IMG/VR virus record: IMGVR_UViG_3300045283_000397 | Coordinates: 1-64,000 of that record | Strand: one strand, 5' to 3' | Source of the DNA: a virus | Length of the DNA: 64,000 nucleotides | In this document: positions 9,483-59,258 of the stretch, piece after piece | How positions within the stretch are numbered: the stretch's first letter is position 1 | Layout of the letters: every line of letters begins with the position of its first letter | The notes under the pieces: generated by a model | What the model was told of the DNA's origin: nothing | Seen by the model: the letters and a program-made list of their open reading frames with translations, nothing else | Databases searched by the model: none | Translations under genes and position numbers: made by a program

Positions 9483-9519
9483 AAAGGGTAGGTTAGCGCC
9501 GCGCGCGGGCGCGGCAAAG

Positions 9520-11214: not shown

Positions 11215-11219
11215 GGTCT

Positions 11220-12245: not shown

Positions 12246-12254
12246 TTGGGTTCC

Positions 12255-12298: not shown

Positions 12299-12311
12299 GG
12301 CTGGGCTGGTC

Positions 12312-45837: not shown

Positions 45838-47779
45838 TCCCCCAATCCTTACCGAATTCAGCGTCCACCTTCATCGGCACGCGCAATTGTACTACGTCAC
45901 GCATGATCTCGGCTACTCTCAGGGCCGTTTTTTCATCGCCCACCGACACATCTATCTCGTCGTGCATCATGAGCAGCGGCGTAATTCCCTCATGCCAACA
46001 TTGGCGAAGCGCCAACTTTGCCTGAATGGCCGCGCTACCCTGGATGAGGCGATTGAGGGCCTTCTGGCAGAAAGCCCGGCGCAAGCGCTTATCGGGCCAC
46101 AACGCGCGCGCGGCGGCCAGCGGACGAGGATAAGCGTAACCGGGTTCCCCGTCGCGCCAGGCCAACTCCCACAAATCGAAGTGAGAGCGCGCCCCGTTGA
46201 GCAAACGCACCCAGCCACGGCTTTCGGCCAGCTGCTGGCAGCGCTTTGCCAATTCCTTAACGAAGGGTAATTCGCGATTGTACTGATCCAAAATGGCGCG
46301 CGCAGCTTCCTCGCTCTGGCCAATCATCATCGCGAATTTCTTCACCCCGGCCCCATAGCTGACGCCGAAGTTTGCATCCTTAGCAGGTTTGCGATCCAGC
46401 CCCGTGATCTCGGCCACATATTGATGGAAGTCGGTCTCGGGGTCCTCGCGGTAGCGCTGTGCCGCTGCGCCCGCGCCAGGGAGATCTAGTAGCTCGGCGA
46501 AGTGCACGATCAATCTGTATTCCTGCTGGCTCCAATCGAACGAGCCCCACACTTCCCCCGGCTCCGGCAGGAACGCACCGCGGAACACCGCGGCTATCTC
46601 CTCATCGCGACTGGGCGCTTGCTGCAAGGCGGGGTCGGAATAGCTGAAACGATAGGAGCGCGTGCCATCCCCTGGTTCCCCTCGGTAAGAATTCACACTG
46701 GCGTGGAGCCGTCCTCTATGGGCGTAATCTAAGATAAATCCTTTAAGAAATTTGTCGGCTGCCTCGGTCAGCTGGTCCGCTCTCGACACCAGCCGCGGCA
46801 ACCAGTGTTCATGCCCCCTCATCCAATCCTTGGTAAATGACCCCTGGCCCGTTTTGGCCGTGCGCGGGTAGCCTATGCGCTGGGAGTCATGCGCCTTCTC
46901 CAGCCAGCGCGGCGAGCGCACCTGCTCCATCCCCAGCGCCGTCACTCCCAGCTGCTCGGTCAGCTCCTTCAGCACCCCATCGCGCTTTTCCAGCAGCGCC
47001 CCCCGGCTCCGCGCCACGCCCTCCAGGTCCACCCTAATGCCGCGGCGCCGCATCTCCAGGCACATGGGCACCAAATCCATCTCCAGCCTATACGCTGCCC
47101 AGGTGCCCTCGGCCTCCAGCGTCGGCACCAGCGCGTTATAGAGCGCCAGCGTGGCCCTGGCGTCCGCCTCCGCGTACAAGCCCACGTAGCGCGCCGGCAG
47201 CCTCCACAGCGCGCCCTTTACCGCGTCGCCATGGTACCCGTAGGCAGCCGCGGCCTCCCTAAGCGCGCGCTCGTCCTTCCCCGGCAGATCGCGCCACCGG
47301 CAGAGATCGTCCAGCTGGTAGTTGAGCCGATTCTCATCGACCATCACCGCGGCGGCCAAGCTATCCTCTATGATCGAGGGAGGTTCCAGGCCCCATTGGG
47401 CGCGCTGCCACCCGAGATCGTAGTTGGCAGAATGGTACAGCCAGCGCAGCCCCCCGGCCGCGGCGTGGTGGTCGCCCAGCCAGCGCCTCACCGCGCCTTC
47501 ATCAAAATTCGCCCCCTCAGGGTGGCGCAGCGGCACGTAGATGGCCTGATCGTCCCAGGCCCAAGCTATTCCGGCTATGTGCCCGCTACGGTACGGCCAG
47601 CCCGACCCGCGCCCGGCGGCGAGCGAGTCGTCGCGCGTCTCGATGTCTTCCGCGATAATCAACTCTCCCCGGTCGCGCAGATCGGGCAATTCCGCCGGCG
47701 CCACCCACGCGGAAGGCGGCGTTATCAAGGGGAGTTGCTCTCCTCCAATGTGGACGCTTTTGGCCCGGGCGCGCGCCAT
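45809..47779 (-). CDS. Family A (Pol I-type) DNA polymerase
   Basis: 656 residues. The N-terminal 3'-5' exonuclease region has IIAEDIETRDDSLAAG (D-x-E), HSANYDLGW and YAEADARATLALYNAL. Polymerase motif A is WGSFDWSQQEYRLIVHFAEL, motif B KDANFGVSYGAGVKKFAMMI, and motif C LLMMHDEIDVSVGDE (HDE). All catalytic residues are present, so proofreading and synthesis should both work. It lies with primase, SF1 helicases and exonuclease in the replication set. No intron was seen in it, although a homing endonuclease flanks it. Confidence 0.95.
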   Translation of the reverse strand: MARARAKSVHIGGEQLPLITPPSAWVAPAELPDLRDRGELIIAEDIETRDDSLAAGRGSGWPYRSGHIAGIAWAWDDQAIYVPLRHPEGANFDEGAVRRWLGDHHAAAGGLRWLYHSANYDLGWQRAQWGLEPPSIIEDSLAAAVMVDENRLNYQLDDLCRWRDLPGKDERALREAAAAYGYHGDAVKGALWRLPARYVGLYAEADARATLALYNALVPTLEAEGTWAAYRLEMDLVPMCLEMRRRGIRVDLEGVARSRGALLEKRDGVLKELTEQLGVTALGMEQVRSPRWLEKAHDSQRIGYPRTAKTGQGSFTKDWMRGHEHWLPRLVSRADQLTEAADKFLKGFILDYAHRGRLHASVNSYRGEPGDGTRSYRFSYSDPALQQAPSRDEEIAAVFRGAFLPEPGEVWGSFDWSQQEYRLIVHFAELLDLPGAGAAAQRYREDPETDFHQYVAEITGLDRKPAKDANFGVSYGAGVKKFAMMIGQSEEAARAILDQYNRELPFVKELAKRCQQLAESRGWVRLLNGARSHFDLWELAWRDGEPGYAYPRPLAAARALWPDKRLRRAFCQKALNRLIQGSAAIQAKLALRQCWHEGITPLLMMHDEIDVSVGDEKTALRVAEIMRDVVQLRVPMKVDAEFGKDWGSAKNAWNTA

Positions 47780-47783
47780 GGGG

Positions 47784-48059
47784 CTAGTGGGCCCGCAGCT
47801 TGGTCTCAGCCTTCAAGGCCAACCAGCCACGTTGGGTGGTATAGATAACCCTCTGTGCTTCATTCACGTAATAGGGCGGGGGTTTTTCGATTTGTTTATA
47901 TTTCTTCCAGGGTCTCCAAGGACGGGCGAAAAGCCGCTCCTTCCAGGTACGGCGCACCAAATCGAAATCAGTCAAATAGTCGCTGACCAAGACGCGCATG
48001 CCCCCAATCACCATTCCGGTGTCCAGATTCTGGCCTTCAAAGAGGTTCCCCCCGGTCAT
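47784..48059 (-). CDS. Hypothetical protein, 91 aa
   Basis: ATG at 48057-48059. Product MTGGNLFEGQNLDTGMVIGG, with VSDYLTDFDLVRRTWKERLF and ARPWRPWKKYKQIEKPPPYY. Basic C-terminus. The second half resembles small phage proteins that contain W..RW..L.P..P unit; no function known. Confidence 0.65.
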   Translation of the reverse strand: MTGGNLFEGQNLDTGMVIGGMRVLVSDYLTDFDLVRRTWKERLFARPWRPWKKYKQIEKPPPYYVNEAQRVIYTTQRGWLALKAETKLRAH

Positions 48060-48190
48060 CGCAACAGCACCCCCAGCAGCAGACCCGCGGGCATGGCCGC
48101 CGCTAGCGCCAGCGCTATGTTCTGCACCTGCTCGCCCACACTAGTGACCAGCAGCACGGGCTCGCGCCAGTCGGCCAGCAGCCTACGCAT
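48056..48190 (-). CDS. Small hydrophobic protein, 44 aa
   Basis: ATG at 48188-48190; its TGA overlaps the next start as ATGA. MRRLLADWREPVLLVTSVGE then QNIALALAAAMPAGLLLGVL: one likely membrane span. Placement and coupling support it. Confidence 0.5.
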   Translation of the reverse strand: MRRLLADWREPVLLVTSVGEQVQNIALALAAAMPAGLLLGVLLR

Positions 48191-48963
48191 CATGGGGCCT
48201 TGCTCAGGTGGTTCCATTTGATCATGGTGTGGCCGCTCTCGCCGTCAAGTTGCACATAGGCATCGCCATCTTGCAAGAACTCCTTGGCCACCCCGGTCCG
48301 GCCATAATAGGTATGGCCGGGGGTGGTGCACACCACCCGGTCGCCCACCTTCATATCGAAGGCACCGCCTCCGGGCACTATGTTCTGGCGCGCATGGTGG
48401 CCGCCATCTTCCGGTGTGCCCGGCCTGTTGGGCTCCTCGCGCCATTTGGCCCCGCGCCTTGCCAACTCCGCCCTTATATCGCGCGCCAGCGCGTCGCCCA
48501 CGCGCGAAAGCGGCGAGCGCCCGAGATCGATCAGTTGCGCGCGCAAGCCCGAGGTGGACCACTGATTTAGTGACTGTCTGTTGAGGGGAGGTTCCGTAGC
48601 CAGTGGCCCCGTCCTTATCACGCTGCGCGCAGCCATTTCCGCTTCCACTAAAAGCAAATAGCGCCTCAAGTCGCGCACCTCGGCCAACACGGTGCCATCC
48701 CCGCCTGTGGCGTCGGCTTCGACGGCGGCAAACACGTCGTAGCGCTCCACCGTCAAGTTGGGCTGGCCCGCGCGCGAGCGATTGAGAATGTGCGTCTCGC
48801 GCCCTAGCATATTCTCCAAGCGGTCCCACTTGCGCGCCAACATATGAAACGCGCCGCAACCACCACGCTTTTTCCAGGAACCTTGGTAAGTTTTTTCTTT
48901 TTCTTTTATATGTTCCACATCAGACTGGGCGATCGAAAATAAATAATCTAGATGGCTGGACAT
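48190..48963 (-). CDS. Hypothetical protein, 257 aa
   Basis: Starts MSSHLDYLFSIAQSDVEHIK. Contains YQGSWKKRGGCGAFHMLARK and WDRLENMLGRETHI, a pattern seen in phage proteins near replication genes. The C-terminal ~60 residues (DMKVGDRVVCTTPGHTYYGR, HTMIKWNHLSKAP) look like a small beta-barrel. It overlaps the HNH gene by 16 nt. Function unknown; nucleotide or DNA metabolism is possible. Confidence 0.68.
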   Translation of the reverse strand: MSSHLDYLFSIAQSDVEHIKEKEKTYQGSWKKRGGCGAFHMLARKWDRLENMLGRETHILNRSRAGQPNLTVERYDVFAAVEADATGGDGTVLAEVRDLRRYLLLVEAEMAARSVIRTGPLATEPPLNRQSLNQWSTSGLRAQLIDLGRSPLSRVGDALARDIRAELARRGAKWREEPNRPGTPEDGGHHARQNIVPGGGAFDMKVGDRVVCTTPGHTYYGRTGVAKEFLQDGDAYVQLDGESGHTMIKWNHLSKAP

Positions 48964-49454
48964 TTAGCCCTCCTTTTCTCCCAACCTCTTTTAGCAGACT
49001 TGGACATTCTTTCTTTCACTCCTGGTAAAGCCCACCATGCAAGAATAGAAGCTTTCATCTTAGGGCGGGGGCCGGGGGGCCTCTTGATTAAACCGTCTCT
49101 TTCAGCTTTTTGTTGGTTTTGAGATCGAGTGAGGAGTTGAAGATTTCTTAGTCTACAATCTAATTTCTTATTATTTATATGATCTACCTCCATTTTAAGG
49201 GAGATAGGACCATTAAACCAAAACCAAACTAACCGATGAGTATAAACCATTTTGCCGTGATGGCGAACTTGTCCTCTACCATTAGGACCGGGGGTGTGTC
49301 CCACTCTTCTCCAGGGGCCTTTAATATGGGTAGGGCCACCCATTTGCTTACAAGTTAAAATATGACCTGATTTATTTACTCTATAAAGACCACTGGTCTT
49401 CATAATAGGAAATAAATAATCGTTTTTACCTGTGTATCTATAATTAGGCACCAT
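48948..49454 (-). CDS. HNH homing endonuclease
   Basis: Start chosen at the ATG 49452-49454 (MVPNYRYTGKNDYLFPIMKT), inside the end of the HD gene. A NUMOD4-like N-terminus (SGLYRVNKSGHILTCKQMGG) is followed by THRLVWFWFNGPISLKMEVD with HINNKKLDCRLRNLQLLT, the HNH core D-H-I-N...N. AT-rich compared with flanking genes, so likely recently acquired. Free-standing, inserted between the HD nucleotidase and the 257-aa gene. Confidence 0.9.
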   Translation of the reverse strand: MVPNYRYTGKNDYLFPIMKTSGLYRVNKSGHILTCKQMGGPTHIKGPWRRVGHTPGPNGRGQVRHHGKMVYTHRLVWFWFNGPISLKMEVDHINNKKLDCRLRNLQLLTRSQNQQKAERDGLIKRPPGPRPKMKASILAWWALPGVKERMSKSAKRGWEKRRAKCPAI

Positions 49455-49989
49455 CGGCCACCGCCTCCTCCAGCCTCTCGCGCTTGATTTGATAGGCAAG
49501 CAGGTTGGTGCGGATAAATTCGGGCAGCTTCATCTCCAGCAGTGTCGCGCGGCACCGCTGGGCGACCAGCGCCGCATACCTATTGCCCATGTTGATCTCA
49601 TGCAGCGCCCATTCCAGCATCTCGAGCGTCTCGGCCGCTTTGAATACCGCGCGATCCATCTCGCTCAGCACCTGCACCCCCGGCAGCTGCCAGCGCTTGG
49701 CCATCGCGCGGTGCGCCTCGTCCTCGCTCACATCCAGCGCGGCCTTGAGCAGCTTGTTGCTGCGCTTGGCGTGCCAGCTACAATCCCCTGCCCAAAGTTC
49801 TCCCACATCATGGACTAGTCCATGGACTAGCACGTGGCGCGGGCAGTCAGGCCAGATCGCCAGCAGCAGCCGCATCACCTGCCAGCTGTGTTCCCCGGTA
49901 GTCTGGCGGCTAACGTGCGGGAACACCCCGTAGCGCGGTATCTGACCAGCGCGCCGGGCGTCTAGCACGTGCTCTTCGCGCATGGTCAT
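49444..49989 (-). CDS. HD-domain 5'-deoxynucleotidase-like hydrolase (YfbR-like)
   Basis: 181 residues. TTGEHSWQVMRLLLAIWP gives the first His, VLVHGLVHDVGELWAGDCSW gives the H-D pair, and EMDRAVFKAAETLEMLEWAL gives the later Asp. This is the E-H-S/T...H-D-x-x-E layout of YfbR-type 5'-deoxynucleotidases that dephosphorylate dNMPs. Phages with modified DNA often carry such enzymes to remove normal dNMPs. It lies in the same operon as the TS homologue. Confidence 0.83.
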   Translation of the reverse strand: MTMREEHVLDARRAGQIPRYGVFPHVSRQTTGEHSWQVMRLLLAIWPDCPRHVLVHGLVHDVGELWAGDCSWHAKRSNKLLKAALDVSEDEAHRAMAKRWQLPGVQVLSEMDRAVFKAAETLEMLEWALHEINMGNRYAALVAQRCRATLLEMKLPEFIRTNLLAYQIKRERLEEAVADGA

Positions 49990-50531
49990 GCGGGCGCCTT
50001 CGTCCTGATATTTTGCATGGCGAATTGCACGCAGCGCGCTTGATGCTTGGCATCGTCAAGGGCGTTGTGATGCATACCCTGGCGCAGAATGGATCGTGGA
50101 TCGAATTGAACGATTTCGAAAAGGGTGCGTGTGCAGCGCACATTCCAAAATTTCCAAGGCACCATGGTACCGACCGCGTGTGCCGCTGCCAGCCACAGCG
50201 GCTCATCAAAGTTGGCGCCGTGCGACCATATCTGCTCGGCCCTGGCTTCCCAGAGGAACCATTGGTGGAATTCCTTTACGACTTCGCTAAGCGCGCGCGG
50301 ATCGATTAGAAGCGCGGCTTCCGCTTCGCGCGATTGGCGTGACCACCATTCTTTGGTTGCTGTATCGACGATGAGGCCGGCTTCAAGGCAGGAAACATAG
50401 TCGATATTGCGATAGAATTCAGCACCCGTAATCTTCCCCAATGGATCGAATGCAACCGCCCCGATGGAGCGTAGCACGCACCCTGGCCGAGTGCCGTATG
50501 TTTCGAGATCGAGCATTACGTTGAGCATCAT
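49986..50531 (-). CDS. DEDDh 3'-5' exonuclease (RNase T/exo VIII-like)
   Basis: Start at the tandem ATGs 50526-50531 with SD GGAGG. 181 residues: MMLNVMLDLETYGTRPGCVL (D-x-E), later IWSHGANFDEPLWLAAA (H-G-x-x-F-D), C-terminal MHHNALDDAKHQARCVQFAM (H-N-x-x-D-D). This matches the phage family of short DEDDh exonucleases near recombination or replication genes. It overlaps its neighbours by 4 nt. Confidence 0.86.
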   Translation of the reverse strand: MMLNVMLDLETYGTRPGCVLRSIGAVAFDPLGKITGAEFYRNIDYVSCLEAGLIVDTATKEWWSRQSREAEAALLIDPRALSEVVKEFHQWFLWEARAEQIWSHGANFDEPLWLAAAHAVGTMVPWKFWNVRCTRTLFEIVQFDPRSILRQGMHHNALDDAKHQARCVQFAMQNIRTKAPA

Positions 50532-50629
50532 ATCCTCCGCCCCGCCCACACCAGCGCCGCGACAATCGCCAGCGCTAGCGCGCCCTGGGCCGCCTGGCCC
50601 AGGTCCATATACATCGGCCCCGTCATCAT
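50528..50629 (-). CDS. Single-pass membrane microprotein, 33 aa
   Basis: ATG at 50627-50629 overlaps the TS-homologue stop as ATGA. MMTGPMYMDLGQAAQGALAL then AIVAALVWAGRRI: one membrane span. Stop-start coupling on both sides supports translation. Confidence 0.5.
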   Translation of the reverse strand: MMTGPMYMDLGQAAQGALALAIVAALVWAGRRI

Positions 50630-51744
50630 GACGCCACCATCTCCGGCTTGCGCATCCGGCGCTCGAACCACTCGCGGCATGCAAGGCGCCAATCCGTCGC
50701 TGCTATTTCTGTGGTAAGCGCCAAGGCTTCATTGCGGTGGCCCAACCTCCACAGCCGCATGCAGACGGCCATGGGCCAGACCGTGCGCGAGAGGAACATA
50801 TTGCGGAACCCCCAATTTGGCGCGCAAGGCTCTGGGTCAATAACGTGTAGGTCGTCCAACATTTCCATCAAGCGCATCAGCTCCCGGTCAAAGCTCTCGG
50901 GCTCGTCCACCAGCGCCATCGGCGCCACCCCGGCCGTGGCGTAGCCGTTGCCCGCTAGCGCGAGAGGCAAGCCGAGGGCGCGCAGCGCGCTGACCGGGGT
51001 GCCCTTGGGTGCGCCCGCGCGTCGCGCCAAGCGCTCCAGTTCGATCACGTAGATATGTAGGTTCCAGCTAACCATGGTCAATGTGCCCACCTGCACTCCG
51101 ATCATGGCGGCTAGGTATTCGAGCAAAATTGCAAAATGAACGGAATTCGCGCCCGCAAGCCCAAACAAAAAATCATGGCTGCGGCTGGTGGTCATCATAT
51201 GCAGCGCATCGTCACGCACGCGCAAATTTATCATGAGATTACAGGGCCTATCGCGCCACTCGCCCTTGAGATCGTTGGCACCGATGGTATACCTATCGTA
51301 GACGTCGGCAGCGGCGATATCTGATGCATCCCACATCTGGATTACGGCCTGGCGATCCCCCCGGTTACGGCGCAGCTTCTCGATGCAGACGGCTAGCTGG
51401 TCGTAGCCGAAGTGCGTCCTCCACCTTTGTCCATAGCCGCCATGGATGTTGCCGTCGGGCTCGGCAAAGCGCGCGCCGAAGTCGCTGATGTAATTGTTGA
51501 GCAGAGCCGCGTCCGAGCGCCCCGCCAGCATGGCCGCCGCCTCTATGAGGTGGAATGCAGGATTGGCATCCCTCACCGCATTGAACAGCACGCACTCGCG
51601 CGGGCGCGCATATACGGTGGCCACCGGCCCCGGCGCCACCAGCACCGGCCCGTTGCGGGACGCCTCCTGGCTCCCGTGCTGGAGCAGATAGTCCACGCCC
51701 AGGGGCAGCGCCTCGGCGACATTGACCGCGTGTATTACGTGCAC
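50626..51744 (-). CDS. Thymidylate synthase homologue (TS or dUMP hydroxymethylase)
   Basis: 372 residues. The TS catalytic segment reads RPCNLMINLRVRDDALHMMT followed by TSRSHDFLFGLAGANSVHFA: active-site Cys, the R-S-x-D phosphate site and the Asn that reads uracil (Asp in dCMP enzymes). SWNLHIYVIELERLARR gives the H-x-Y. The N-terminal GGYGQRWR matches the Y.R.R region. The Asn indicates a dUMP substrate, but sequence alone cannot separate methylation from hydroxymethylation. Nearby TAGT-like and HMUDK-helical-like genes favour hydroxymethyl-dUMP synthesis. Confidence 0.85.
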   Translation of the reverse strand: MHVIHAVNVAEALPLGVDYLLQHGSQEASRNGPVLVAPGPVATVYARPRECVLFNAVRDANPAFHLIEAAAMLAGRSDAALLNNYISDFGARFAEPDGNIHGGYGQRWRTHFGYDQLAVCIEKLRRNRGDRQAVIQMWDASDIAAADVYDRYTIGANDLKGEWRDRPCNLMINLRVRDDALHMMTTSRSHDFLFGLAGANSVHFAILLEYLAAMIGVQVGTLTMVSWNLHIYVIELERLARRAGAPKGTPVSALRALGLPLALAGNGYATAGVAPMALVDEPESFDRELMRLMEMLDDLHVIDPEPCAPNWGFRNMFLSRTVWPMAVCMRLWRLGHRNEALALTTEIAATDWRLACREWFERRMRKPEMVAS

Positions 51745-51947
51745 TCGCGTGTCTCCGCGCTGGGATGGGCCGTGACAAAGGCGTCGCGCTCCTCCCGGAT
51801 GGCAAAGCCCCAGGTCCTAACGCGCGTGGAGAATACGACTGAGAGGTGCTTCCCCGGCACGCGCTCGGGCCGCACCTTGGTGCTGGATGTAGCGCAGAAG
51901 GGGTAGCGGTGTTTACGCTCTTCCCAAAATGTATGTGCTTTTCCCAT
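51735..51947 (-). CDS. Hypothetical protein, 70 aa
   Basis: Start placed at the ATG 51945-51947 (MGKAHTFWEERKHRYPFCAT); an ATG four codons earlier would fall in a candidate -10 box. Ends FVTAHPSAETRECT. Basic, unknown. Overlaps the TS-homologue start by 10 nt. Confidence 0.6.
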   Translation of the reverse strand: MGKAHTFWEERKHRYPFCATSSTKVRPERVPGKHLSVVFSTRVRTWGFAIREERDAFVTAHPSAETRECT

Positions 51948-51954
51948 GGGCACT

Positions 51955-51983
51955 ACCATGGGCCCGCGCGCAGGCGCAGTAAA
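51955..51983 (-). promoter_or_regulatory. Possible phage promoter (weak -10)
   Basis: Minus strand TTTACT (51978-51983), 17-nt spacer, CATGGT (51955-51960). The -35 box and spacer start (GCGCCTGCGC) match the promoter near 61,500, but the -10 is poor and the transcript would begin nearly at the next start codon. Confidence 0.35.
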
Positions 51984-52051
51984 GCGTGGAGGCCCGCCAG
52001 CGCTAGCTGGTCGGGCCCCCTACAGTCCAGCAACTCTGTGGGGGGACGGGG

Positions 52052-52687
52052 TTACTCGACCGCGACGTATCCCTTCTCCACGTCCCAGCGCAGGCAGCCC
52101 AGCGCCACCGAGCGCCCGAGCTTCTCGCACAGCGTGGCGACCTTTATGCCGGTGCGGTAGGCGGCGAACCATTCGTGCGCCTTGGTGCCCTCGCGCTTGG
52201 GGTTGCCCTCCGCCAGAACGGTGATCTTGGCCTCGTCGCCGTAGGCCGGCGCGCGTCCGCGCCGCCCGCTTCCATTGCCTTCCTTCTTCGCCTTCTTAGC
52301 CTTGGCCATCTGGCCCTCCTTGCTTTCTGCCGGGGCCGGATATGCCTGCGGCGGTTCCTGCGGTACAGTGGGTGGCTCGGCCGGGGTCACCCGCATGGCC
52401 TCGGCTTGGTCTTGTAACACCTCTTCGCAGAGGCGCTCGGCGCGCGGGTCGGCACGCAACCTAGCCAGGCCGGGGCTAATATCGTCCCCCCCGGCGCGGC
52501 GCTGGCCCTCCTTGTGGGCCTTCATGCTGCTGGCGATGGCCGCCAGCGACTTCTCGGCGTCGCTGCGGTCCTTGAAGCAGCGCCGCTCGCGATAGTGCGT
52601 CAATCCCGCGAGTTGCGCGTCGGCAACCAAAGTGTTGTAGGCGCGCAGCATCTGCTGGATGGTCATCTCGCTATAGTCGGTCTTCAT
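52052..52687 (-). CDS. Hypothetical DNA-associated phage protein, 211 aa
   Basis: The ATG at 52685-52687 has SD GGAGAG and the leader AACTGGGCA. N-terminal MKTDYSEMTIQQMLRAYNTL and THYRERRCFKDRSDAEKSLA; a middle Pro/Glu/Lys linker (MAKAKKAKKEGNGSGRRGRA); C-terminal ITVLAEGNPKREGTKAHEWF with AAYRTGIKVATLCEKLGRSV. The C-terminal unit resembles a small domain found in many phage and bacterial proteins, often next to DNA-binding parts. Function unknown. Confidence 0.7.
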   Translation of the reverse strand: MKTDYSEMTIQQMLRAYNTLVADAQLAGLTHYRERRCFKDRSDAEKSLAAIASSMKAHKEGQRRAGGDDISPGLARLRADPRAERLCEEVLQDQAEAMRVTPAEPPTVPQEPPQAYPAPAESKEGQMAKAKKAKKEGNGSGRRGRAPAYGDEAKITVLAEGNPKREGTKAHEWFAAYRTGIKVATLCEKLGRSVALGCLRWDVEKGYVAVE

Positions 52688-52726
52688 TGCCCAGTTCTCT
52701 CCTGATAGTGGTTTATTAGTATTCAA

Positions 52727-52755
52727 CCTCTAACCCATCTCTTGGAGAATGTAAA
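52727..52755 (-). promoter_or_regulatory. Possible phage promoter (weak -10)
   Basis: Minus strand TTTACA (52750-52755), 17-nt spacer, TAGAGG (52727-52732). The -35 fits the recurrent type, the -10 does not fit well. It is followed by the GAGAACTGGGCA leader of the 211-aa gene, as at stronger promoters. Confidence 0.4.
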
Positions 52756-52769
52756 GGGGGTCCGCGAAA

Positions 52770-53576
52770 TTATTTTCTTCCGTCTTCGGCTGCTTTTTTC
52801 CAGGCCACGGTGACTTCGGTGCGAGTGCCGAAGCCTTCGGCGTCTGTTTTATTGGCCTTTTGGCGTAATTTTACATAACCGGGGTGAAGTTCTACTAGGC
52901 GCTGAGCGCTGGCTTCGTGCAGCGCATGGGTGCGCCAGAGCGAGCATCCCCCCGGCGCATTGGTCTGTCCCTGATCGTTGGCCCAGTAGCAGAGATTGGC
53001 ATTGCCCAGACCCGCGCGCAATAGCTGGAGCTGTACGTCGAAGTCTTCCATGACCGGGAGGCGGTCATGTTCGCAGGCCAAGAATTCCTTGGTGCGATAG
53101 ACGAGCACACGCATCACGCGCGTGTCGCGCAGCACCAAGTCCTCCGGCGTGCCCACGCCGTGCCGATTGTTGCCTTCGCGGCTGCTCACCCCTGCCGAAG
53201 CCACCTCGGCCAAGCAATCCAGCAGCGCCGCCAGCATTTGTTCCATATCACCCCAGGCCACGGGGCGCAGGTGCCAGCTCTCGTTAGATTTCCTTACAAA
53301 AAAGCGCACGTCGTCGTCCATCATCAGGAAAGCATCCTGCCCCTGGCCGCTGGCCATTTCGCCAATGATGCGTCTCTTCTCACCGATAGACCTATATCCG
53401 ATTCCTTCTACCGTCACGCCTTTAATAGAGTTATTGGCCAATTTGTTCTTGTATCGGGCGACTTCGTCTCCCGGCACGACCAATATGGTGCGCGCGCGCA
53501 GCCCTGGTCCCATATCTGCGAGCGGGCCGTGTGGGATGAGCGCGGCGCGCCCCCGGCTGGGGATGTAGATCTTCAT
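52770..53576 (-). CDS. TAGT-like glycosyltransferase (DNA hypermodification candidate)
   Basis: 268 residues. Starts MKIYIPSRGRAALIPHGPLA, has IGYRSIGEKRRIIGEMASGQ and the acidic DAFLMMDDDVRFFVRK, then RHGVGTPEDLVLRDTRVMRV, VYRTKEFLACEHDRLPVMED and FDVQLQLLRAGLGNANLCYW. IPS.GRA, the DDD motif and the E.F...L acceptor segment are those of GT-A folds of the TET/JBP-associated glycosyltransferase group defined by Iyer, Aravind and colleagues. Members glycosylate modified bases in phage DNA. No TET/JBP gene is visible here. A surface-glycan role cannot be excluded. Confidence 0.66.
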   Translation of the reverse strand: MKIYIPSRGRAALIPHGPLADMGPGLRARTILVVPGDEVARYKNKLANNSIKGVTVEGIGYRSIGEKRRIIGEMASGQGQDAFLMMDDDVRFFVRKSNESWHLRPVAWGDMEQMLAALLDCLAEVASAGVSSREGNNRHGVGTPEDLVLRDTRVMRVLVYRTKEFLACEHDRLPVMEDFDVQLQLLRAGLGNANLCYWANDQGQTNAPGGCSLWRTHALHEASAQRLVELHPGYVKLRQKANKTDAEGFGTRTEVTVAWKKAAEDGRK

Positions 53577-54301
53577 GATTTTCTTCGAATACGTTTACCA
53601 AGCCCTTGTTTCTTAGCTCTTCGAGAAGCTGCGGCGCGCTTCTCCGGCGTCCAAGCACTCCGTTGTTTTTCACGCGTTTCCAAGCTGGCCTTGCGCCCAG
53701 TGTTTAATATGCGTATGCGCCTGCTTTGTTCTCGACGCCGCTTAGGTGTCCATGCTGCACGCTGCTTGGCACGTGTTTCTTTACTAAACTTGATACCGCG
53801 CCTTTTCTCTCCGGCTATGGCTGCTTTAATAAGGAAACTCGCCACAGATTCTGCCGACCAAGTTTTACGGCCGAATTTACCTTTGGCGTGTTGTTTCTTA
53901 ACTCGTCGTGATCGGCGTTTTATTTCTTCGGGATCTGCTGCAATTTGCAAAGCAGCTACGCTCATTTTAATTTTTGTTTCTTCAGTATGTTTAGACCCTT
54001 TGGGGGTACCAGCATTGGGTTGGACATTTAATAAAGGGCCATCATAATTATCCAACCACCATTGTTCCCTGATGTCCAATTCGGACTCAGGGCAAAGTTC
54101 CATTATTTTATATTGCCAGTCCTTTGGATTGGTGCTGTTCCAAGCGTCTAATAATTTCTTGCTATGGTGCCATGGCCGTTTGAGCATGGCCCGATGATAT
54201 GAAAATCTGTTCTCTATCCACACTGACCCACCAATATATGCCATTTTGGTCAGCACATGGATCAGGGCATATATGCCGCAACTCTTTTTAGGCCTGGCCA
54301 T
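53573..54301 (-). CDS. GIY-YIG homing endonuclease between hypermodification genes
   Basis: 242 residues. CGIYALIHVLTKMAYIGGSV gives GIY..AYIGG; RFSYHRAMLKRPWHHSKKLL and LDIREQWWLDNYDGPLLNVQ provide the Arg/His helix and catalytic Glu (E-Q-W). The C-terminus is a run of basic NUMOD-type repeats (KRRSRRVKKQHAKGKFGRKT; ETRAKQRAAWTPKRRREQSR). It overlaps the TAGT-like gene by 4 nt and the helical gene by 14 nt, so it was fitted precisely into a pre-existing gene junction. Confidence 0.91.
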   Translation of the reverse strand: MARPKKSCGIYALIHVLTKMAYIGGSVWIENRFSYHRAMLKRPWHHSKKLLDAWNSTNPKDWQYKIMELCPESELDIREQWWLDNYDGPLLNVQPNAGTPKGSKHTEETKIKMSVAALQIAADPEEIKRRSRRVKKQHAKGKFGRKTWSAESVASFLIKAAIAGEKRRGIKFSKETRAKQRAAWTPKRRREQSRRIRILNTGRKASLETREKQRSAWTPEKRAAASRRAKKQGLGKRIRRKS

Positions 54302-55169
54302 TCCCTTCGAAAAGGCGCTTGGGCCTCCCCTCCCCTAGTCGCACGCGCTCATATTTGTCGAATTCGCAATTTAGCGATTGACAGTCTTGACCATGAAATG
54401 GCTCGTGTAGCCATTTGCTATTTATCCAGTCTTGCAGCCTGCGCAGCTGCAAGCGCCATTCATCCTCGCGCCACGCGGCATCCTTTGGCCTATTCAAAAT
54501 CCTATTTAAGCCACGCCTGCTCCCTGGGCCACTGGCAGCGAACGTATACCAGTCCACGGCCTTGCGCAACGGCTCCACATATTTGCAGTCAGCAATTACT
54601 TGCGCGGCCATAAAGCTACCGAGCCCTTGCATCTGGCCCAGCAGCATGTGGTAACTGTTTAGACTGTCCCCCGGTTTGGGCCGCAACCTTTCTCGCCCCT
54701 GCCAGAGTGGTTGCAACACTTCCACTGTGACATACTCTGCCTTGCTCATCTTGCGCCCATTGGTGCTGACGATGTAAGCTGGCCCAAAGCACAGTTCACC
54801 ATACTCCTTGCGCCGCGCCATCACCCTCAAGAACCTCTCAGGCTCCCAAGGCACCGGCCAGCCGATCTCCGCCAGCGTCTCCGGCCAATTCACGAATCTT
54901 GCAACAACCATCCCGAACCACAAATCCTCATCCCCGGCGTAGGGCTCGCGCCAATTAACCCGGATCCATTGCGTCACAGCATCATCCTCGCGTCGAATGT
55001 TGCAAAATCTGTAAGAACGTAAGATGATGTCATCCGTCCAAGGCTTCGGCTGCCCCGCCGAGCGCCTAAGCCTGATGGCCTCGCGTTCAACGGCGAAGGC
55101 CAGGAGACGTTCGCGCGGATCGGCAATGGCGCCAATCTTAGTTTCAATCGCTGGCGCGGGCACTGCCAT
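54288..55169 (-). CDS. 5-hmdU kinase helical-domain/thymine-pyrophosphorylase-like protein
   Basis: Start at the ATG 55167-55169 with SD AGGAG. 293 residues. FAVEREAIRLRRSAGQPKPW followed by TDDIILRSYRFCNIRREDDA and VTQWIRVNWREPYAGDEDLW is, to my reading, the signature of the alpha-helical DNA-glycosylase-like domain found in 5-hmdU DNA kinases and alpha-glutamyl/putrescinyl-thymine pyrophosphorylases of hypermodified phages. Also LLGQMQGLGSFMAAQVIADC recalls the HhH-like part. No P-loop kinase domain is fused. Together with TS homologue and TAGT-like gene it suggests thymine hypermodification. Confidence 0.68.
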   Translation of the reverse strand: MAVPAPAIETKIGAIADPRERLLAFAVEREAIRLRRSAGQPKPWTDDIILRSYRFCNIRREDDAVTQWIRVNWREPYAGDEDLWFGMVVARFVNWPETLAEIGWPVPWEPERFLRVMARRKEYGELCFGPAYIVSTNGRKMSKAEYVTVEVLQPLWQGRERLRPKPGDSLNSYHMLLGQMQGLGSFMAAQVIADCKYVEPLRKAVDWYTFAASGPGSRRGLNRILNRPKDAAWREDEWRLQLRRLQDWINSKWLHEPFHGQDCQSLNCEFDKYERVRLGEGRPKRLFEGNGQA

Positions 55170-55371
55170 GCTCCTTGGCGGTCTCGATGGCCCAGCGCGG
55201 GGCGCAATAGCGCTTCTCGTTGCGCGCATAAATCACGGCCTTGCGCGGCAGCCAGAGCCGCCAGCCGTAGTAATCGAACTGGATGGCCCAGTCCGTGCGC
55301 TCGTGGGACTCGCCCAGGTAGCGGTATCCCGGCAAACGCTCAGCCACCCGTTTTATCCCCCGCATCACCAT
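55144..55371 (-). CDS. Hypothetical protein, 75 aa
   Basis: Start at the ATG 55369-55371 (MVMRGIKRVAERLPGYRYLG); overlaps both neighbours. Contains WAIQFDYYGWRLWLPRKAVI. Basic, aromatic. Unknown. Confidence 0.62.
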   Translation of the reverse strand: MVMRGIKRVAERLPGYRYLGESHERTDWAIQFDYYGWRLWLPRKAVIYARNEKRYCAPRWAIETAKEHGSARASD

Positions 55372-55582
55372 TGACCTTCTCCACCGTAATCTTAACCCGG
55401 TCCCCTGCATGTATTTCGGGTTTTTCAAACCCGAGATGCAAGCTCTCGTAGCTGCCTTCCAAGTGCATGTACCAGCCCAACGATTGCTCGCGGAACTTGG
55501 CCTCCTCGCCGAAGCCGCTTAGATATATCTTGCGCATCTCCTTGCGTACGCTAAGCACCCGGGTATGCGTCACCCATCGCAT
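55340..55582 (-). CDS. Hypothetical protein, 80 aa
   Basis: ATG at 55580-55582 (MRWVTHTRVLSVRKEMRKIY), 2 nt past the DUF6745-like stop. Has EQSLGWYMHLEGSYESLHLG and AGDRVKITVEKV. Small beta-rich protein of unknown function. Confidence 0.65.
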   Translation of the reverse strand: MRWVTHTRVLSVRKEMRKIYLSGFGEEAKFREQSLGWYMHLEGSYESLHLGFEKPEIHAGDRVKITVEKVNGDAGDKTGG

Positions 55583-55584
55583 GG

Positions 55585-56856
55585 CTAGGTTTCTACTACG
55601 GGAACATATTCCTTGGGAGTAAGACCAAAAGTCCAAGCCGCCGCCTCGTGCGCCTTGGTTATTTGGGGCGGGACACGTAAAAAATAATGTTTAAAACTGC
55701 CGTCGAGTTCGCGTGTCGAGTTAACTACCTCCAGCATTACAATGGGCTCGTCGAAGGGCAGCTCGCGCCGCCAGAGCGTGCCATAATTCTCATCATAGTC
55801 TAGCCGCTTGCCCCCGGCATCGCGGATATAGGCAGCGGCGCCTTTGATTTCGGCCTTGGGCCGATACTGATCAATCATTACCCGACGGACCTCGGCATTT
55901 CGCTCCTTGTCCACAGCTTCTATGGTGATGGTTTCGGGTTTCTCGATAATTTGCGCAGGCACCCTAACGCCGTGCACCGCATAAATGGCCCAGCCATCTG
56001 GGTAAACGCAAGCCGGCCCTGTGAGTGAGTGCAGGTGACCGCGCTCATCTCGCATTAGTATGTGGTGACGCTCCGAGACCCAACAGATGTTCTGATGCGG
56101 CAAAGCCCAACCGGTACTCTGGGAGAGTTCCCACAACCCTGCCAATTTTTGAGTTTCTGCAACAAGGCCCAAAGTCTCATAAAAATAGCTATAAAAGGCT
56201 AACCAAGAAGCATCATGGGCTCCGTACACGCTGTCCCCCACGCTGGCCCACACGCTGTCCCGCACGCTGGCCCACACGCTGTCCCGCACGCTGTCCCGCA
56301 CGCTGTCCCCCACGCTGGCCCACACGCTGGCCCACACGCTGGCCCACACGCTGTCCCCCACGCTGGCCCACACGCTGTCCCGCACGCTGGCCCGCACGCT
56401 GTCCCCCACGCTGTCCCGCACGCTGTCCCGCACGCTGTCCCGCACGCTGGCCCGCACGCTGGCCCACACGCTGTCCCGCACGCTGGCCCGCACGCTGGCC
56501 CACACGCTGTCCCACACGCTGGCCCCCACGCTGGTCCCCACGCTGGTCCCCACGCTGTCCCGCACGCTGGCCCACACGCTGGTCCCCACGCTGTCCCGCA
56601 CGCTGTCCCCCACGCTGTCCCATTCCCGGTCAAGGATGATGGCCCGGGTTAACCCCTGTGAAAGCGGCGACCCACACCAAATTATCTTGCGCGGGGGTTT
56701 AAGTCCCCCTTGTCGATAAGTCTCGTAAATAGCGGCCTCGGCCCTGGGACGATTGGCCACATCAGTACAGAGTCCAATTTTGGTCCAGTGCTCTACAAAC
56801 TCGGGGAAGCGCGCAATTTGTTTGGGCGTGAGGCGCTCGATCTTAGTCCGCGACAT
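55585..56856 (-). CDS. DUF6745-like protein with 33 tetrapeptide repeats
   Basis: 423 residues. An N-terminal part (MSRTKIERLTPKQIARFPEF, then GLTRAIILDREW) is followed at residues 80-211 by 33 copies of a [D/A/T]-S-V-[G/R/W] unit, and then by a conserved C-terminal domain (WLAFYSYFYETLGL, then WELSQSTGWALPHQNICWVS with ERHHILMRDERGHLHSLTGP, then YPDGWAIYAVHGVRVPAQII). The 'H...GPA..YPDGW.IYA.HGVRVP' part is typical of DUF6745. The repeat probably makes a regular solenoid and can change length by slippage. Role unknown. It is paired with the next gene, an arrangement I believe is common. Confidence 0.8.
   Translation of the reverse strand: MSRTKIERLTPKQIARFPEFVEHWTKIGLCTDVANRPRAEAAIYETYRQGGLKPPRKIIWCGSPLSQGLTRAIILDREWDSVGDSVRDSVGTSVWASVRDSVGTSVGTSVGASVWDSVWASVRASVRDSVWASVRASVRDSVRDSVRDSVGDSVRASVRDSVWASVGDSVWASVWASVWASVGDSVRDSVRDSVWASVRDSVWASVGDSVYGAHDASWLAFYSYFYETLGLVAETQKLAGLWELSQSTGWALPHQNICWVSERHHILMRDERGHLHSLTGPACVYPDGWAIYAVHGVRVPAQIIEKPETITIEAVDKERNAEVRRVMIDQYRPKAEIKGAAAYIRDAGGKRLDYDENYGTLWRRELPFDEPIVMLEVVNSTRELDGSFKHYFLRVPPQITKAHEAAAWTFGLTPKEYVPVVET
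56224..56619. repeat. 33 tandem 12-bp repeats inside the DUF6745-like gene
   Basis: The plus strand shows CACGCT followed by GTC, GGC or GGT and CCN every 12 bp from 56227 to 56619 with no break in phase. Variation is confined to codons 1 and 4 of the unit, while the S-V codons (AGC GTG) are invariant. Because the 12-bp unit lacks stops, all six frames stay open here and produce spurious long ORFs. Confidence 0.95.
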
Positions 56857-57157
56857 TGCGAATGGCCTCCGGCGAGTATTCGCGCTGACGGATCACCAGG
56901 TAATTACCCGGCGGCACCAGCACCGTGGAATGCTCATCATGCTCCAGCGCTACCGAGCTATCACCCGACACATACATAAAGATGGCCGCGAGCTTCGGAT
57001 CGCTGAACAGTGCAGCTCGATCATCCTTGATGGCATGGGCATGTCCGGTTGCTTCGCCATGGGCCAGTACTGCGCGGCCATTCTCACGTTCGACGGCCAC
57101 GAGGCCTTTGGGCAGAGCTTTTACCGGAATTACCAGAACGTCGCCTTGACGATACAT
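56843..57157 (-). CDS. Hypothetical protein, 104 aa
   Basis: SD AAAGGAG precedes the ATG at 57155-57157. Product MYRQGDVLVIPVKALPKGLV, with VLAHGEATGHAHAIKDDRAA and ALEHDEHSTVLVPPGNYLVI, then RQREYSPEAIRNVAD. The 'RQGDVL...GE.TGHAH...EH....P.G.Y.V.RQREY' pattern is a well-spread small family often encoded beside DUF6745 proteins. His-rich, possibly metal-binding. Function unknown. Confidence 0.78.
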   Translation of the reverse strand: MYRQGDVLVIPVKALPKGLVAVERENGRAVLAHGEATGHAHAIKDDRAALFSDPKLAAIFMYVSGDSSVALEHDEHSTVLVPPGNYLVIRQREYSPEAIRNVAD

Positions 57158-57184
57158 AGTCCATCTCCTTTATTGTAGATTAAC

Positions 57185-57198
57185 TTAGTTTAAACTAA
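57185..57198. promoter_or_regulatory. 14-bp perfect palindrome (operator candidate)
   Basis: TTAGTTTAAACTAA is an exact palindrome in the short gap between the helicase stop and the 104-aa gene. It is AT-rich in GC-rich surroundings and lies about 30 bp upstream of the SD of the leftward gene, a natural place for an operator or promoter element. Confidence 0.5.
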
Positions 57199-57212
57199 AA
57201 TGTAGGCGCAAG

Positions 57213-58718
57213 CTATACCCAAGGACACGCTAGCTGCCCGCCCGCGGCCACCAGCGTTAACCGTTCACGCGCTCGCGTTACCGCCACGTACCAAACACGG
57301 CGCTCAGGATCAGGATTGGTCTCCATTTCCTGATGCGTCCTTTTTGCCATATCCGATAAAACGATTACGTATTCTGCTTCACTGCCCTTGGACCCGTGTA
57401 TGGTGCTGATGCGCACCCTAGGCTTGGCGCGTAGCCGCTCGCCGCGCCTGCGCATCGCCAAGATGTAGCCCACGTCCTGCTGCGGGAGGCGATCGAGCGC
57501 GACGTGCCAGATCGCGTCGACAAGCAGGCCGCCCTTCTTCTTGAGATCATCCAGCGTGACCGGGGGGGCCTGCTCGTCGAATGCGCTGAGCGATTTGTAT
57601 CCGCGCGCTACCCCGCGCCCCACGCTCATGGCCTGGTACACTGCGCGCGCTGCTTCCACCGCCACCGCGCCCCCGGCCCTTAGCCTCTCCCAGTCAGATA
57701 TTACCTGCAAGACTTCGGTGCTTACCGAAGGCTTTTCATTGCGGTGATAGTACACGCCGGCTTCGCGCAGCGCGGGCGCCACCACATCGTTGAGCACATA
57801 GGCGTTGCGCGCCAGCACCAGCACGTCCGGCCCCTCGGTCAGCCCCACGTCGAAGGCGACCTCGTGCGCCACCGCGCCCTCCGCTGCGCGCGGCGCCCAC
57901 TGCTTAGGCCTGCGGTGCGCTACTGGGGAGATGAGTGTATTGGCGAGGATCTGTACAGCGCGCGGCACGCGGTAGGATTGGCCCAGCACGCGCACGTCCC
58001 CGGCCATGTCCACTAGATGGGACGAGTCTGCTCCGGCCCATTGGAAGATTGCCTGGTCGTCATCCCCGGCCACCACGCAACGCTTGGCGCCCTGCCTGAG
58101 GCGATCGAACACATCCCACTGTAATTTCGGGAGGTCTTGACATTCATCTCCTATTAATGTCTCCAGGCGCAGCTGGAGGCCCTCCCTGAGGAATTGCTGG
58201 AGCATGTCGGTGTAGTCCATCAGCCCCCGCGCACGCTTGAATTCGCGCAACGCGCGCGCCACTCGCTCCACCTCGTGCCACGGCAGGCCATCATCAAACT
58301 GATCGAACTGCTCTCGCAGTTTGACCATCTTGATTCTTGCCAAGTTTTCCATAAAGATGATGCGGTCGCCGGGCTCGAAGCCCGCCTGGAGCCCGTCTTC
58401 CGACCACCCCCCGGTCACCCTTATGCCGGCCCAGTCGGCGAATTCCCTGGTCGCCTTGCGGTCCATCACCTCGCCCGGGCGCAGGCCCAGCAGCCGGAAG
58501 CACAAGGAGTGCAGCGTGCGGAACCAGGGCAGCTGCGCGCGCGCCAGCCCGAACTTCTCGCTCGCGCGCGTCACGGCCTCCTCGGCCGCGCGCCGCGTGA
58601 ACGAGAGGTAGGCGATGCGCTCGGGTGCCACGCCGCGCGCCAGCTCTGCGTCTACGATGTCGAGTAGCGACGTAGTCTTGCCGCAGCCGGGGGGGCCAAG
58701 GATAATCTCGGGCATCAT
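57213..58718 (-). CDS. Second UvrD/Rep-type superfamily 1 helicase
   Basis: Start at the ATG 58716-58718, overlapping the upstream stop as ATGA; the 31-residue extension lacks support. 501 residues: motif I IILGPPGCGKTTSLLDIVDA, motif Ia YLSFTRRAAEEAVTRA, motif II LETLIGDECQDLPKLQWDVF (DECQ), motif III CVVAGDDDQAIFQWAGADSS, motif IV LGQSYRVPRAVQILAN, motif V STIHGSKGSEAEYVIVLSD, motif VI VWYVAVTRARERLTLV. Complete. It is closer to PcrA/UvrD-like phage helicases than to the first one and likely has a distinct role in repair, recombination or fork movement. Confidence 0.92.
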   Translation of the reverse strand: MMPEIILGPPGCGKTTSLLDIVDAELARGVAPERIAYLSFTRRAAEEAVTRASEKFGLARAQLPWFRTLHSLCFRLLGLRPGEVMDRKATREFADWAGIRVTGGWSEDGLQAGFEPGDRIIFMENLARIKMVKLREQFDQFDDGLPWHEVERVARALREFKRARGLMDYTDMLQQFLREGLQLRLETLIGDECQDLPKLQWDVFDRLRQGAKRCVVAGDDDQAIFQWAGADSSHLVDMAGDVRVLGQSYRVPRAVQILANTLISPVAHRRPKQWAPRAAEGAVAHEVAFDVGLTEGPDVLVLARNAYVLNDVVAPALREAGVYYHRNEKPSVSTEVLQVISDWERLRAGGAVAVEAARAVYQAMSVGRGVARGYKSLSAFDEQAPPVTLDDLKKKGGLLVDAIWHVALDRLPQQDVGYILAMRRRGERLRAKPRVRISTIHGSKGSEAEYVIVLSDMAKRTHQEMETNPDPERRVWYVAVTRARERLTLVAAGGQLACPWV

Positions 58719-59104
58719 GTGAATAGGCGCAAGATCATGGTTTTGGCATTTTCTAAGGTAGTGGCTTTGACGCAGGCTGGGTGGTGGCGCCAAGTGCCGA
58801 AACTGGAGCAATCGCCCGCGATAAAGACCGGGATGCCATTGGCGATGGCGATGCCTACCTCTACCAGGGCGCCACGCAACTCGTCTCCCGGTTCTGCGTA
58901 GACGATGAGCGCGCGCGAGGTTTCCACGTCGTGCTGATCTACCATCCAGAAAATATGAAAATCCTCGGGCGTAGCGGACTCTTCATGCGCGGCTTGATCG
59001 AACCAGCGCGCGTGTAGATCTATGCCATGTTGCTTCCATTCGTAGCGCAAATCACACAAGCGCGGCGCATATTTAATCTTACTGGCGATATAGACACGGA
59101 TCAT
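58715..59104 (-). CDS. Nucleoside 2-deoxyribosyltransferase-like protein
   Basis: Start chosen at the ATG 59102-59104 (MIRVYIASKIKYAPRLCDLR); the frame is open to a TTG at 59266 with low-complexity Ala/Gly sequence. 129 residues: VYIASKIKYAPRLCDLRYEW, FWMVDQHDVETSRALIVYAE and GDELRGALVEVGIAIANGIP match the Y.A....A....L...G.......D...........D.......G..VE.G.A...GIPV layout of nucleoside 2-deoxyribosyltransferases, with a catalytic Glu in VEVG. It may salvage or rework deoxynucleosides, consistent with base modification. Confidence 0.78.
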   Translation of the reverse strand: MIRVYIASKIKYAPRLCDLRYEWKQHGIDLHARWFDQAAHEESATPEDFHIFWMVDQHDVETSRALIVYAEPGDELRGALVEVGIAIANGIPVFIAGDCSSFGTWRHHPACVKATTLENAKTMILRLFT

Positions 59105-59258
59105 TGCATTTGCTCCAGCTGCTCCGCCACCGCCCTTAGCGCCGCGGCCCACTCCCCCGGCGCACCGCGCGCCAGCCGGCGCCCGAGCGAGCGCCCGGGC
59201 CATCTCTCCGGCTACGCGCGCCATCGCGTTATGGGCGCGCGCCAGCTGCTGCTCACGG

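Follow-up and report, generated by a model that had tools for sequence, protein, structure and literature searches.

The window analysed here, 64,000 nucleotides in length, corresponds to bases 1–64,000 of the 90,564-base virus record IMGVR_UViG_3300045283_000397, and carries on its minus strand a compact set of genes with predicted roles in the modification of thymine in DNA. An initial annotation, made from the sequence alone, had recognized four open reading frames (ORFs) as a probable thymine hypermodification set: a thymidylate synthase (TS) homologue, an HD-domain 5′-deoxynucleotidase, a glycosyltransferase resembling TAGT, and a protein resembling the helical domain of 5-hydroxymethyl-deoxyuridine (5-hmdU) kinases and thymine pyrophosphorylases. 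All four ORFs were recovered in place, each encoded by the minus strand. Listed in the direction of transcription, the genes of the locus are:

54288–55229, minus strand: HMUDK_hel-family protein (PF18723; alternative annotation aGPT-Pplase1), a stand-alone ORF; Pfam E = 3.4e-37
53573–54301, minus strand: GIY-YIG homing-endonuclease-like ORF between HMUDK_hel and TAGT; Pfam GIY-YIG 0.0011 and NUMOD3 0.0026, both below cut-off; PHROG 314 (homing endonuclease) 3e-14
52770–53576, minus strand: TAGT-family glycosyltransferase (PF20691); Pfam E = 1.6e-17, PHROG 842 E = 2.8e-38
52052–52726, minus strand: unassigned ORF separating TAGT from TS; nothing in PHROG at E ≤ 0.1; Pfam HTH_23 0.097, below cut-off
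50626–51744, minus strand: thymidylate-synthase-family protein; Pfam Thymidylat_synt 6.5e-19, PHROG 5131 1.6e-81
49986–50534, minus strand: Rv2179c-like 3′-5′ exonuclease between the TS and HD genes; Pfam E = 6.9e-45
49444–49989, minus strand: HD-domain YfbR-like 5′-deoxynucleotidase; Pfam E = 7.1e-9, 36 bits, cut-off 25.9
45809–47779, minus strand: family A DNA polymerase, downstream of the set; Pfam 4.7e-36; the neighbourhood in Pseudomonas phage M6 is alike

Profile searches placed both proteins of uncertain identity in the families first proposed for them. The HMUDK_hel match covered positions 7–277 of 281 (128.8 bits, cut-off 25) and the TAGT match was full-length, at positions 1–205 of 205 (64.6 bits, cut-off 27.5). 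Assignment of 52770–53576 to the cell-wall transferases, or of 54288–55169 to unrelated helical proteins, was thereby ruled out. The start originally given to the HMUDK_hel protein, 55169, is an internal ATG, and the longest ORF opens at 55229; both starts precede the matched domain, and only the boundary needed correction. The HD nucleotidase was likewise upheld, as was the uracil-reading Asn of the TS homologue, found at residue 200 in the pyrimidine-specificity column, with the Cys of the PC motif at residue 168. The TS homologue is 36–38% identical, over 98% of its length, to proteins of YuA-like phages. A megablast search of window positions 46000–58000 against phages gave no match, and neither HMUDK_hel nor TAGT had a relevant match among PDB sequences by phmmer. 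The GIY-YIG-like ORF is probably an insertion outside the pathway.

The gene set was compared with that of phage M6, whose DNA is reported to carry 5-(2-aminoethyl)deoxyuridine (5-NedU) (PMC6449724). In M6, genes for ADDT (amino acid:DNA transferase), a pyridoxal-phosphate (PLP)-fold protein, the kinase, HMUDK_hel, Nmad5, TS and an HD protein lie in one run, followed by the polymerase. The window shares with M6 the TS homologue, a separate HMUDK_hel ORF, a YfbR-like HD gene after TS, and a nearby family A polymerase, the last by annotation. Found in M6 only were the 5-hmdU kinase (gp54), ADDT (gp51), the PLP-fold protein (gp52), Nmad5 (gp56) and gp53, a protein annotated as a photolyase that we take to be a radical SAM enzyme. 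In the window, TAGT stands in place of the kinase and ADDT of M6. The absence of kinase and ADDT held across the whole 90,564-base record, which is a virus contig and possibly a fragment, so that each absence applies to the sequenced part. The 5-hmdU DNA kinase model PF18748 had no match, with M6 positive in the same search; nor did a second kinase model, PF18747, which was run with no positive control. ADDT (PF18724) was also unmatched, with M6 positive at 2.3e-48. The TET_JBP model found nothing in the record, while phage Tonitrus matched in the same search at 7.7e-10, slightly under the curated cut-off. A thymidylate kinase was not found in the record by Pfam, and no phage 5-hmdUMP kinase was identified. 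The suggestion of a variant route lacking P-loop kinase and TET was therefore borne out in the record as sequenced.

To place this arrangement in context, HMUDK_hel, TS and TAGT queries were run over viral and genome contigs, together with named records and the window. Loci are designated by L numbers, and since one scan contributed 80 of the 563 confirmed loci, locus totals are lower bounds. The TAGT scan of viral contigs used a three-row alignment as query, a single-protein query having given no matches. At least 232 HMUDK_hel loci were obtained. TS was accompanied by TAGT in 88, by the kinase in 68, by both in 1 and by neither in 22; TAGT stood without TS in 2, and the remaining 51 had no TS, kinase or TAGT. 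To reduce redundancy, 223 HMUDK_hel ORFs of at least 200 residues were clustered at 80% identity (nine loci with shorter pieces were dropped). This gave 63 TS + TAGT clusters, 43 TS + kinase, 1 both, 18 TS with neither, 1 TAGT without TS, and 41 with none, each label being the union over the examined DNA of all members, with several contigs present in more than one locus. Many contigs are short; among clusters with at least 4 kb on both sides of HMUDK_hel there were 45 TS + TAGT, 22 TS + kinase and 8 TS alone, besides smaller classes. No ORF matched two of the six survey profiles at E < 1e-5. The co-occurrence of TS, TAGT and HMUDK_hel, recurring in 63 clusters, exceeds chance.

The kinase and TAGT rarely occurred together. 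Because some loci had been retrieved by TAGT itself, the count was repeated on loci retrieved by HMUDK_hel queries only. Of the clusters with TS in this subset, 22 had TAGT, 28 had the kinase, none had both and 16 had neither (one-sided Fisher p = 1.2e-7; the test set aside 41 clusters that had none of TS, kinase and TAGT, and a single TAGT cluster lacking TS). As the survey profiles had been built from the same loci, Pfam models served as an independent check. On whole records, PF18748 matched 0 of 64 TAGT-type records (50, plus 12 including the mixed L156, plus the window and Brevibacterium phage LuckyBarnes) versus 34 of 39 of the kinase type (33 of 38, plus M6). The kinase-type matches were counted at E ≤ 0.01, with 13 records above the curated cut-off, and the 38 records and M6 come from the 43 kinase-type clusters, of which L222, L009, L025 and L034 were left out. 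PF18747 was run on 50 records. ADDT was found in 0 of 27 TAGT-type versus 15 of 23 kinase-type records, drawn from 64 and 43 representatives, respectively. TET_JBP matched 0 of 50 records tested (no positive control in that run), despite the TET/JBP association in the name of the TAGT family. The survey-built kinase profile recognized the kinase of phage ViI (1.6e-25).

Linkage between TAGT and HMUDK_hel was close. The two genes were on the same strand in all 91 loci, with a median gap of 4 bp, and lay within 100 bp in 55 and within 1 kb in 74; gaps were counted per locus and are lower bounds, as ORFs were taken from the first start codon. Among 65 loci retrieved with the TAGT query, HMUDK_hel was present in 60, TS in 63 and a match to the HD profile in 35. 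This query was built from the window's own TAGT subgroup, and so is uninformative on T6-like TAGTs. The DDD motif of the window's TAGT, Asp87–89, was present in all 59 aligned TAGTs linked to HMUDK_hel (from 63 clusters, four being dropped by the length and E-value filter). We take this motif to be the metal site of a GT-A enzyme.

Some of the 18 clusters in which TS had neither the kinase nor TAGT as a partner carried other candidate glycosyltransferases. One family, for which no convincing Pfam match was found in the four members scanned, occurred in 7 of these 18 clusters. The structural model of this family (predicted local distance difference test score, pLDDT, 89.6) matched the DNA beta-glucosyltransferase (BGT) of phage T4 best, with a Foldseek E of 2.7e-9 and a VIA Z score of 20.6 over 293 residues; the next non-phage row had Z = 16.7. 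A member is located as follows:

L081:104–1054: BGT-like family member; model resembles T4 beta-glucosyltransferase

T4 BGT is reported to be able to glucosylate 5-hydroxymethyluracil (5-hmU) in oligonucleotides (PMC4111573). A GT1/GT4-like family, below the Pfam cut-off, was found in six kinase-less loci with HMUDK_hel and TS, two of them near-copies and one, L008, also with TAGT. Among the same 18 clusters, L092, L125, L228 and L223 share a GT1/GT4-like family (sub-cut-off Pfam matches for L092, L228 and L223, none for L125), to which L229 is weakly related. L083 and L086 have in common another ORF family, glycosyltransferase-like by eye, with no Pfam match and also present in three TAGT loci. 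L084 gave a sub-cut-off TAGT match (9.7e-6), and L033 a glycosyltransferase candidate by eye, with no Pfam match; in L093 and L218 no candidate was seen. Radical SAM/SPASM proteins stand beside the glycosyltransferase candidates in the kinase-less HMUDK_hel loci L083, L084 and L092, and L125 and L156 looked similar by eye.

Further analyses addressed the HMUDK_hel protein, which is common to the TAGT-type and kinase-type loci. In a quick maximum-likelihood tree of 106 proteins (with long branches for L004, L210 and L152), 20 changes of partner label were required, at least nine of them on well-supported branches. The label was still clustered on the tree, as shuffled labels required a mean of 33.8 changes and 0 of 500 shuffles gave a number as low. 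The nearest rows to the window's HMUDK_hel were of the kinase type, and its smallest well-supported set comprised six kinase and two TAGT rows. Among strongly conserved positions, none had a majority residue that differed between kinase-linked and TAGT-linked groups. As HMUDK_hel is constant at these positions while its partner switches, it would most simply be a handler of the shared substrate, 5-hmdU in DNA. Its retention in many records where no kinase was detected argues that it is neither a mere part of the kinase nor a pyrophosphorylase acting on the phosphorylated base.

An AlphaFold2 model of the window's HMUDK_hel had a pLDDT of 94.4. Foldseek gave weak matches, the best at E = 0.047. 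In the VIA ranking, the top structure was the 5-PmdU glycinyltransferase gp46 of phage PaMx11, an ADDT (8z2n; Z = 11.0, root-mean-square deviation 4.0, 220 residues aligned). Ranks 2–40 were helix-hairpin-helix (HhH) DNA glycosylases (Z = 6.1–10.3) and queuosine-salvage DUF2419 proteins (Z = 9.0–9.2), after which scores fell to 2.6. Scores below about 13 may reflect an arrangement common among helical proteins, as the aligner cautions. The sharp drop, with a single superfamily above it, suggests that the relation to the HhH glycosylase/ADDT fold may be real. The modelled fold suits DNA binding and base flipping, proving neither.

The base used by the pathway was considered through the TS homologue. 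In thymidylate synthase and in the dCMP hydroxymethylase of T4, it is established that Asn in the specificity column reads dUMP and Asp reads dCMP. The column held Asn in 88 of 88 TS ORFs of more than 200 residues from loci that carry both HMUDK_hel and TAGT, that of LuckyBarnes among them. In loci with HMUDK_hel and the kinase it held Asn in 63 and Asp in 2, the near-copies L010 and L011; these counts are per ORF, with redundant contigs included. The two Asp residues indicate that the column is able to vary.

LuckyBarnes carries the same gene set. Its gp38–gp41 place TS, TAGT and HMUDK_hel in a row, with no match to kinase or ADDT in the whole record. It differs in having two TAGT copies and a divergent HMUDK_hel, 25% identical to that of the window. 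Its authors predicted two glycosyltransferases and a dCMP-hydroxymethylase (PMC6588365).

These data suggest that the gene set probably makes glycosylated 5-hydroxymethyl-deoxyuridine in phage DNA. Because the kinase/ADDT branch was not found, and alternates with glycosyltransferases across relatives, the set is better read as one for 5-hmdU glycosylation than for amine-type hypermodification. The families and the variant route of the initial annotation thus stand, while the chemistry shifts from amine to sugar. We infer the substrate, the sugar, the order of steps and the roles of the HD enzyme and HMUDK_hel as follows. The TS homologue would convert dUMP to 5-hmdUMP, which would be phosphorylated further, probably by host kinases. 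The phage polymerase would then place 5-hmdU instead of some of the thymidine, and TAGT would add a sugar to its 5-hydroxymethyl group once the base is in DNA. For HMUDK_hel, the probable role is to bind DNA and to flip or single out 5-hmdU on behalf of the transferase; it may do likewise for the kinase of M6-type phages. Competing deoxynucleotides may be trimmed by the HD enzyme.

Other explanations were weighed against the same evidence. HMUDK_hel could itself be the catalyst that alters 5-hmdU in all these phages, with kinase or glycosyltransferase acting on another step or base. Its conserved polar residues resemble an active site, the same in both groups, and its nearest solved fold is that of the glycinyltransferase gp46. 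However, a 5-hmU DNA kinase used alone as a reagent is described as phosphorylating 5-hmU DNA (PMC6457204), so that phosphorylation there, as described, would need no HMUDK_hel catalyst. We regard a catalytic HMUDK_hel as unlikely, though deserving some weight. A cytosine route, in which 5-hydroxymethyl-dCMP would come from the TS homologue and 5-hydroxymethylcytosine (5-hmC) would be the base glycosylated by TAGT, as in T-even phages, would accord with the reported action of known TAGTs on glucosylated 5-hmC (PMC13216743), with the PHROG name, beta-glucosyl-HMC-alpha-glucosyltransferase, and with the naming of the LuckyBarnes TS homologue as a dCMP-hydroxymethylase by its authors (PMC6588365). 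Yet the TS homologue of LuckyBarnes is among the 88 with Asn in the specificity column, and a related TS serves M6, whose DNA has modified thymidine (PMC6449724). Moreover, the alpha-glucosyltransferase (AGT) model PF11440 matched 0 of 22 records and the BGT model PF09198 0 of 28, window included, in runs lacking a positive control, and the BGT-like family described above is itself not recognized by PF09198. A cytosine route is thus doubtful.

Classic thymine hypermodification by kinase and amino acid transfer, with kinase or ADDT in an unsequenced part and TAGT as a further decoration, would explain the HMUDK_hel and TS common to the window and M6. The possible incompleteness of the record would allow it, as would the kinase-like and TAGT genes found together in L156 and the grouping of the window's HMUDK_hel with mostly kinase-type homologues. 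Against it stands the lack of PF18748 and ADDT matches among the 64 and 27 TAGT-type records. In addition, the M6 kinase adjoins HMUDK_hel and ADDT lies a few genes off, and the equivalent neighbourhood is sequenced here. The classic route therefore appears quite improbable. Least credible is a plain supply of 5-hmdU or TMP, with a nearby glycosyltransferase serving cell-surface or virion sugars by coincidence. The record does encode GLF, an epimerase and GT9 proteins far from the set, possibly for surface or virion glycans; but the short TAGT–HMUDK_hel gap persists across diverse contigs, and the protein matches a DNA-linked TAGT family and no cell-wall transferase family. We consider coincidence highly improbable.

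Several observations nevertheless weigh against glycosylation of 5-hmdU. As the record may be fragmentary, an absent gene is no proof. The rule for Asn and Asp is extrapolated here to a divergent TS subfamily, and in RB69-type phages a TS relative is reported to make a 5-hydroxy, not a 5-hydroxymethyl, base (PMC13390438); the LuckyBarnes prediction of a dCMP-hydroxymethylase also counts against it. Activity on glucosyl-5hmC in T2/T6 was the sole TAGT activity met in the passages of PMC13216743. The weak Foldseek matches and the aligner's caution bear on the role proposed for HMUDK_hel, as does phage ViI, in which the kinase matched at 2.6e-116 and no HMUDK_hel match was found in the 50 of 157 kb examined, indicating that the kinase does not always depend on HMUDK_hel. 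The exclusion between kinase and glycosyltransferase is also not absolute, for three reasons. The mixed locus L156 has both TAGT and a kinase-like ORF (survey profile 3e-34; PF18747 weak). In L008, a P-loop gene adjoins HMUDK_hel; its Pfam match is to APS kinase (1.2e-7), but a divergent 5-hmdU kinase is conceivable. Finally, the BGT-like family occurs in five kinase clusters, and so is not a strict alternative to the kinase; it also accompanies TAGT once, in L156, and is present in L006, a locus in which TS was not detected.

TAGT is described as a GT-A enzyme acting on a phage DNA base in T2/T6 (PMC13216743). The T2/T6 enzymes and the window's TAGT belong to the same Pfam family, PF20691. 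Whereas in T2/T6 TAGT is reported to add a second glucose to glucosyl-5hmC, after AGT and on cytosine, the window's TAGT has no detected AGT or BGT companion (the searches having no positive control) and has a uracil-type TS and HMUDK_hel as neighbours. Base J of kinetoplastids (glucosyl-5-hmU) is the same kind of product as proposed here, a sugar on 5-hmU in DNA. In base J synthesis, JBP enzymes oxidise thymine in DNA, whereas the window's pathway would form 5-hmdU ahead of replication; TET/JBP went unmatched in the record. In pelagiphages of the HTVC023P type, the same gene mix was noted earlier, descriptively, as thymidine hypermodification partners (PMC9599517); the passages on these phages mention neither kinase replacement nor a glycosylated 5-hmdU product. 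In the open literature, subscription papers and preprints aside, no statement that glycosyltransferases or TAGT replace the kinase/ADDT branch was found among the passages of the matches listed. The replacement of kinase by glycosyltransferase, giving a thymine hypermodification that would end in a sugar, would therefore be a new form of an already known type of modification.

According to a 2026 study of T4, 288 of 753 phage genomes encode solitary homologues of TAGT, which may be novel transferases (PMC13216743). The gene set described here would give at least one subgroup of solitary TAGTs a concrete, testable substrate, 5-hmdU. If the proposal is correct, glycosylated thymine derivatives would be common in environmental phage DNA, with consequences for long-read base calling, for type IV defence and for resistance to restriction and to CRISPR, and new DNA-glycosylating enzymes, the BGT-like family included, would be at hand. 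More tentatively, and with rather less assurance than 5-hmdU glycosylation itself, HMUDK_hel may be a general adaptor that flips and presents 5-hmdU to exchangeable partners (kinase, GT-A TAGT, BGT-like GT-B and other glycosyltransferases), repeated swaps of which could lead to combinatorial amino-acid and sugar modifications of thymine.

Genes flanking HMUDK_hel in two relatives suggest unusual sugars, and hint at sugars as the variable part. In L062 (8096–13705), HMUDK_hel and TS are accompanied by a BGT-like transferase and by PfkB, SIS, cytidylyltransferase and HAD genes, in what we take to be the order expected for ADP-heptose synthesis. L008 is a 238-kb phage contig in which one run (7033–14516) holds GT4-like, TAGT, HMUDK_hel, APS-kinase-like, sulfotransferase, UDP-galactopyranose mutase and TS genes. 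The APS-kinase-like, sulfotransferase and mutase genes sit between HMUDK_hel and TS, and the run possibly specifies a sulfated sugar.

Among the kinase-type loci, L016 has a myo-inositol-1-phosphate synthase gene (Pfam 6.8e-37) between HMUDK_hel and TS, as does L071 by eye; in L071 the HMUDK_hel and kinase ORFs are each present twice. HMUDK_hel homologues also occur in genome contigs, with haloarchaea, Nanoarchaeota and candidate phyla among them (L231–L256), where the TS, kinase and TAGT profiles were unmatched in the DNA examined.

The window itself contains sugar genes at 1140–10514: GLF/UDP-galactopyranose mutase (4417–5583), an NAD epimerase (8136–9188), two GT9-like proteins and a DUF5672 protein (3349–4092). 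A C-methyltransferase lies at 25143–26399. By phmmer, relatives of the GLF, epimerase and GT9 genes (1–10.5 kb) and of the C-methyltransferase gene were not found in the examined DNA of the surveyed loci, except for weak epimerase matches in L092/L094. A role for these genes and the C-methyltransferase in supplying sugar for DNA is therefore unsupported, and the link, although possible, is unproven. The GLF, epimerase and GT9 genes lie more than 40 kb from the set. Further homing-endonuclease-like ORFs were seen by eye at 45115–45837, 48948–49499, 11220–12245 and 14372–14863. The ORF at 55585–56856 encodes a protein with a long DSV/ASV-type repeat, the repeat being open in several frames and on both strands, and 58715–59266 gave a weak match to nucleoside 2-deoxyribosyltransferase (1.9e-4, below cut-off). 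An AEP-TOTE primase-like protein is encoded at 36228–37790 (E = 6.1e-10), and similar proteins were seen by eye upstream of the HMUDK_hel gene sets in L028 and L228.

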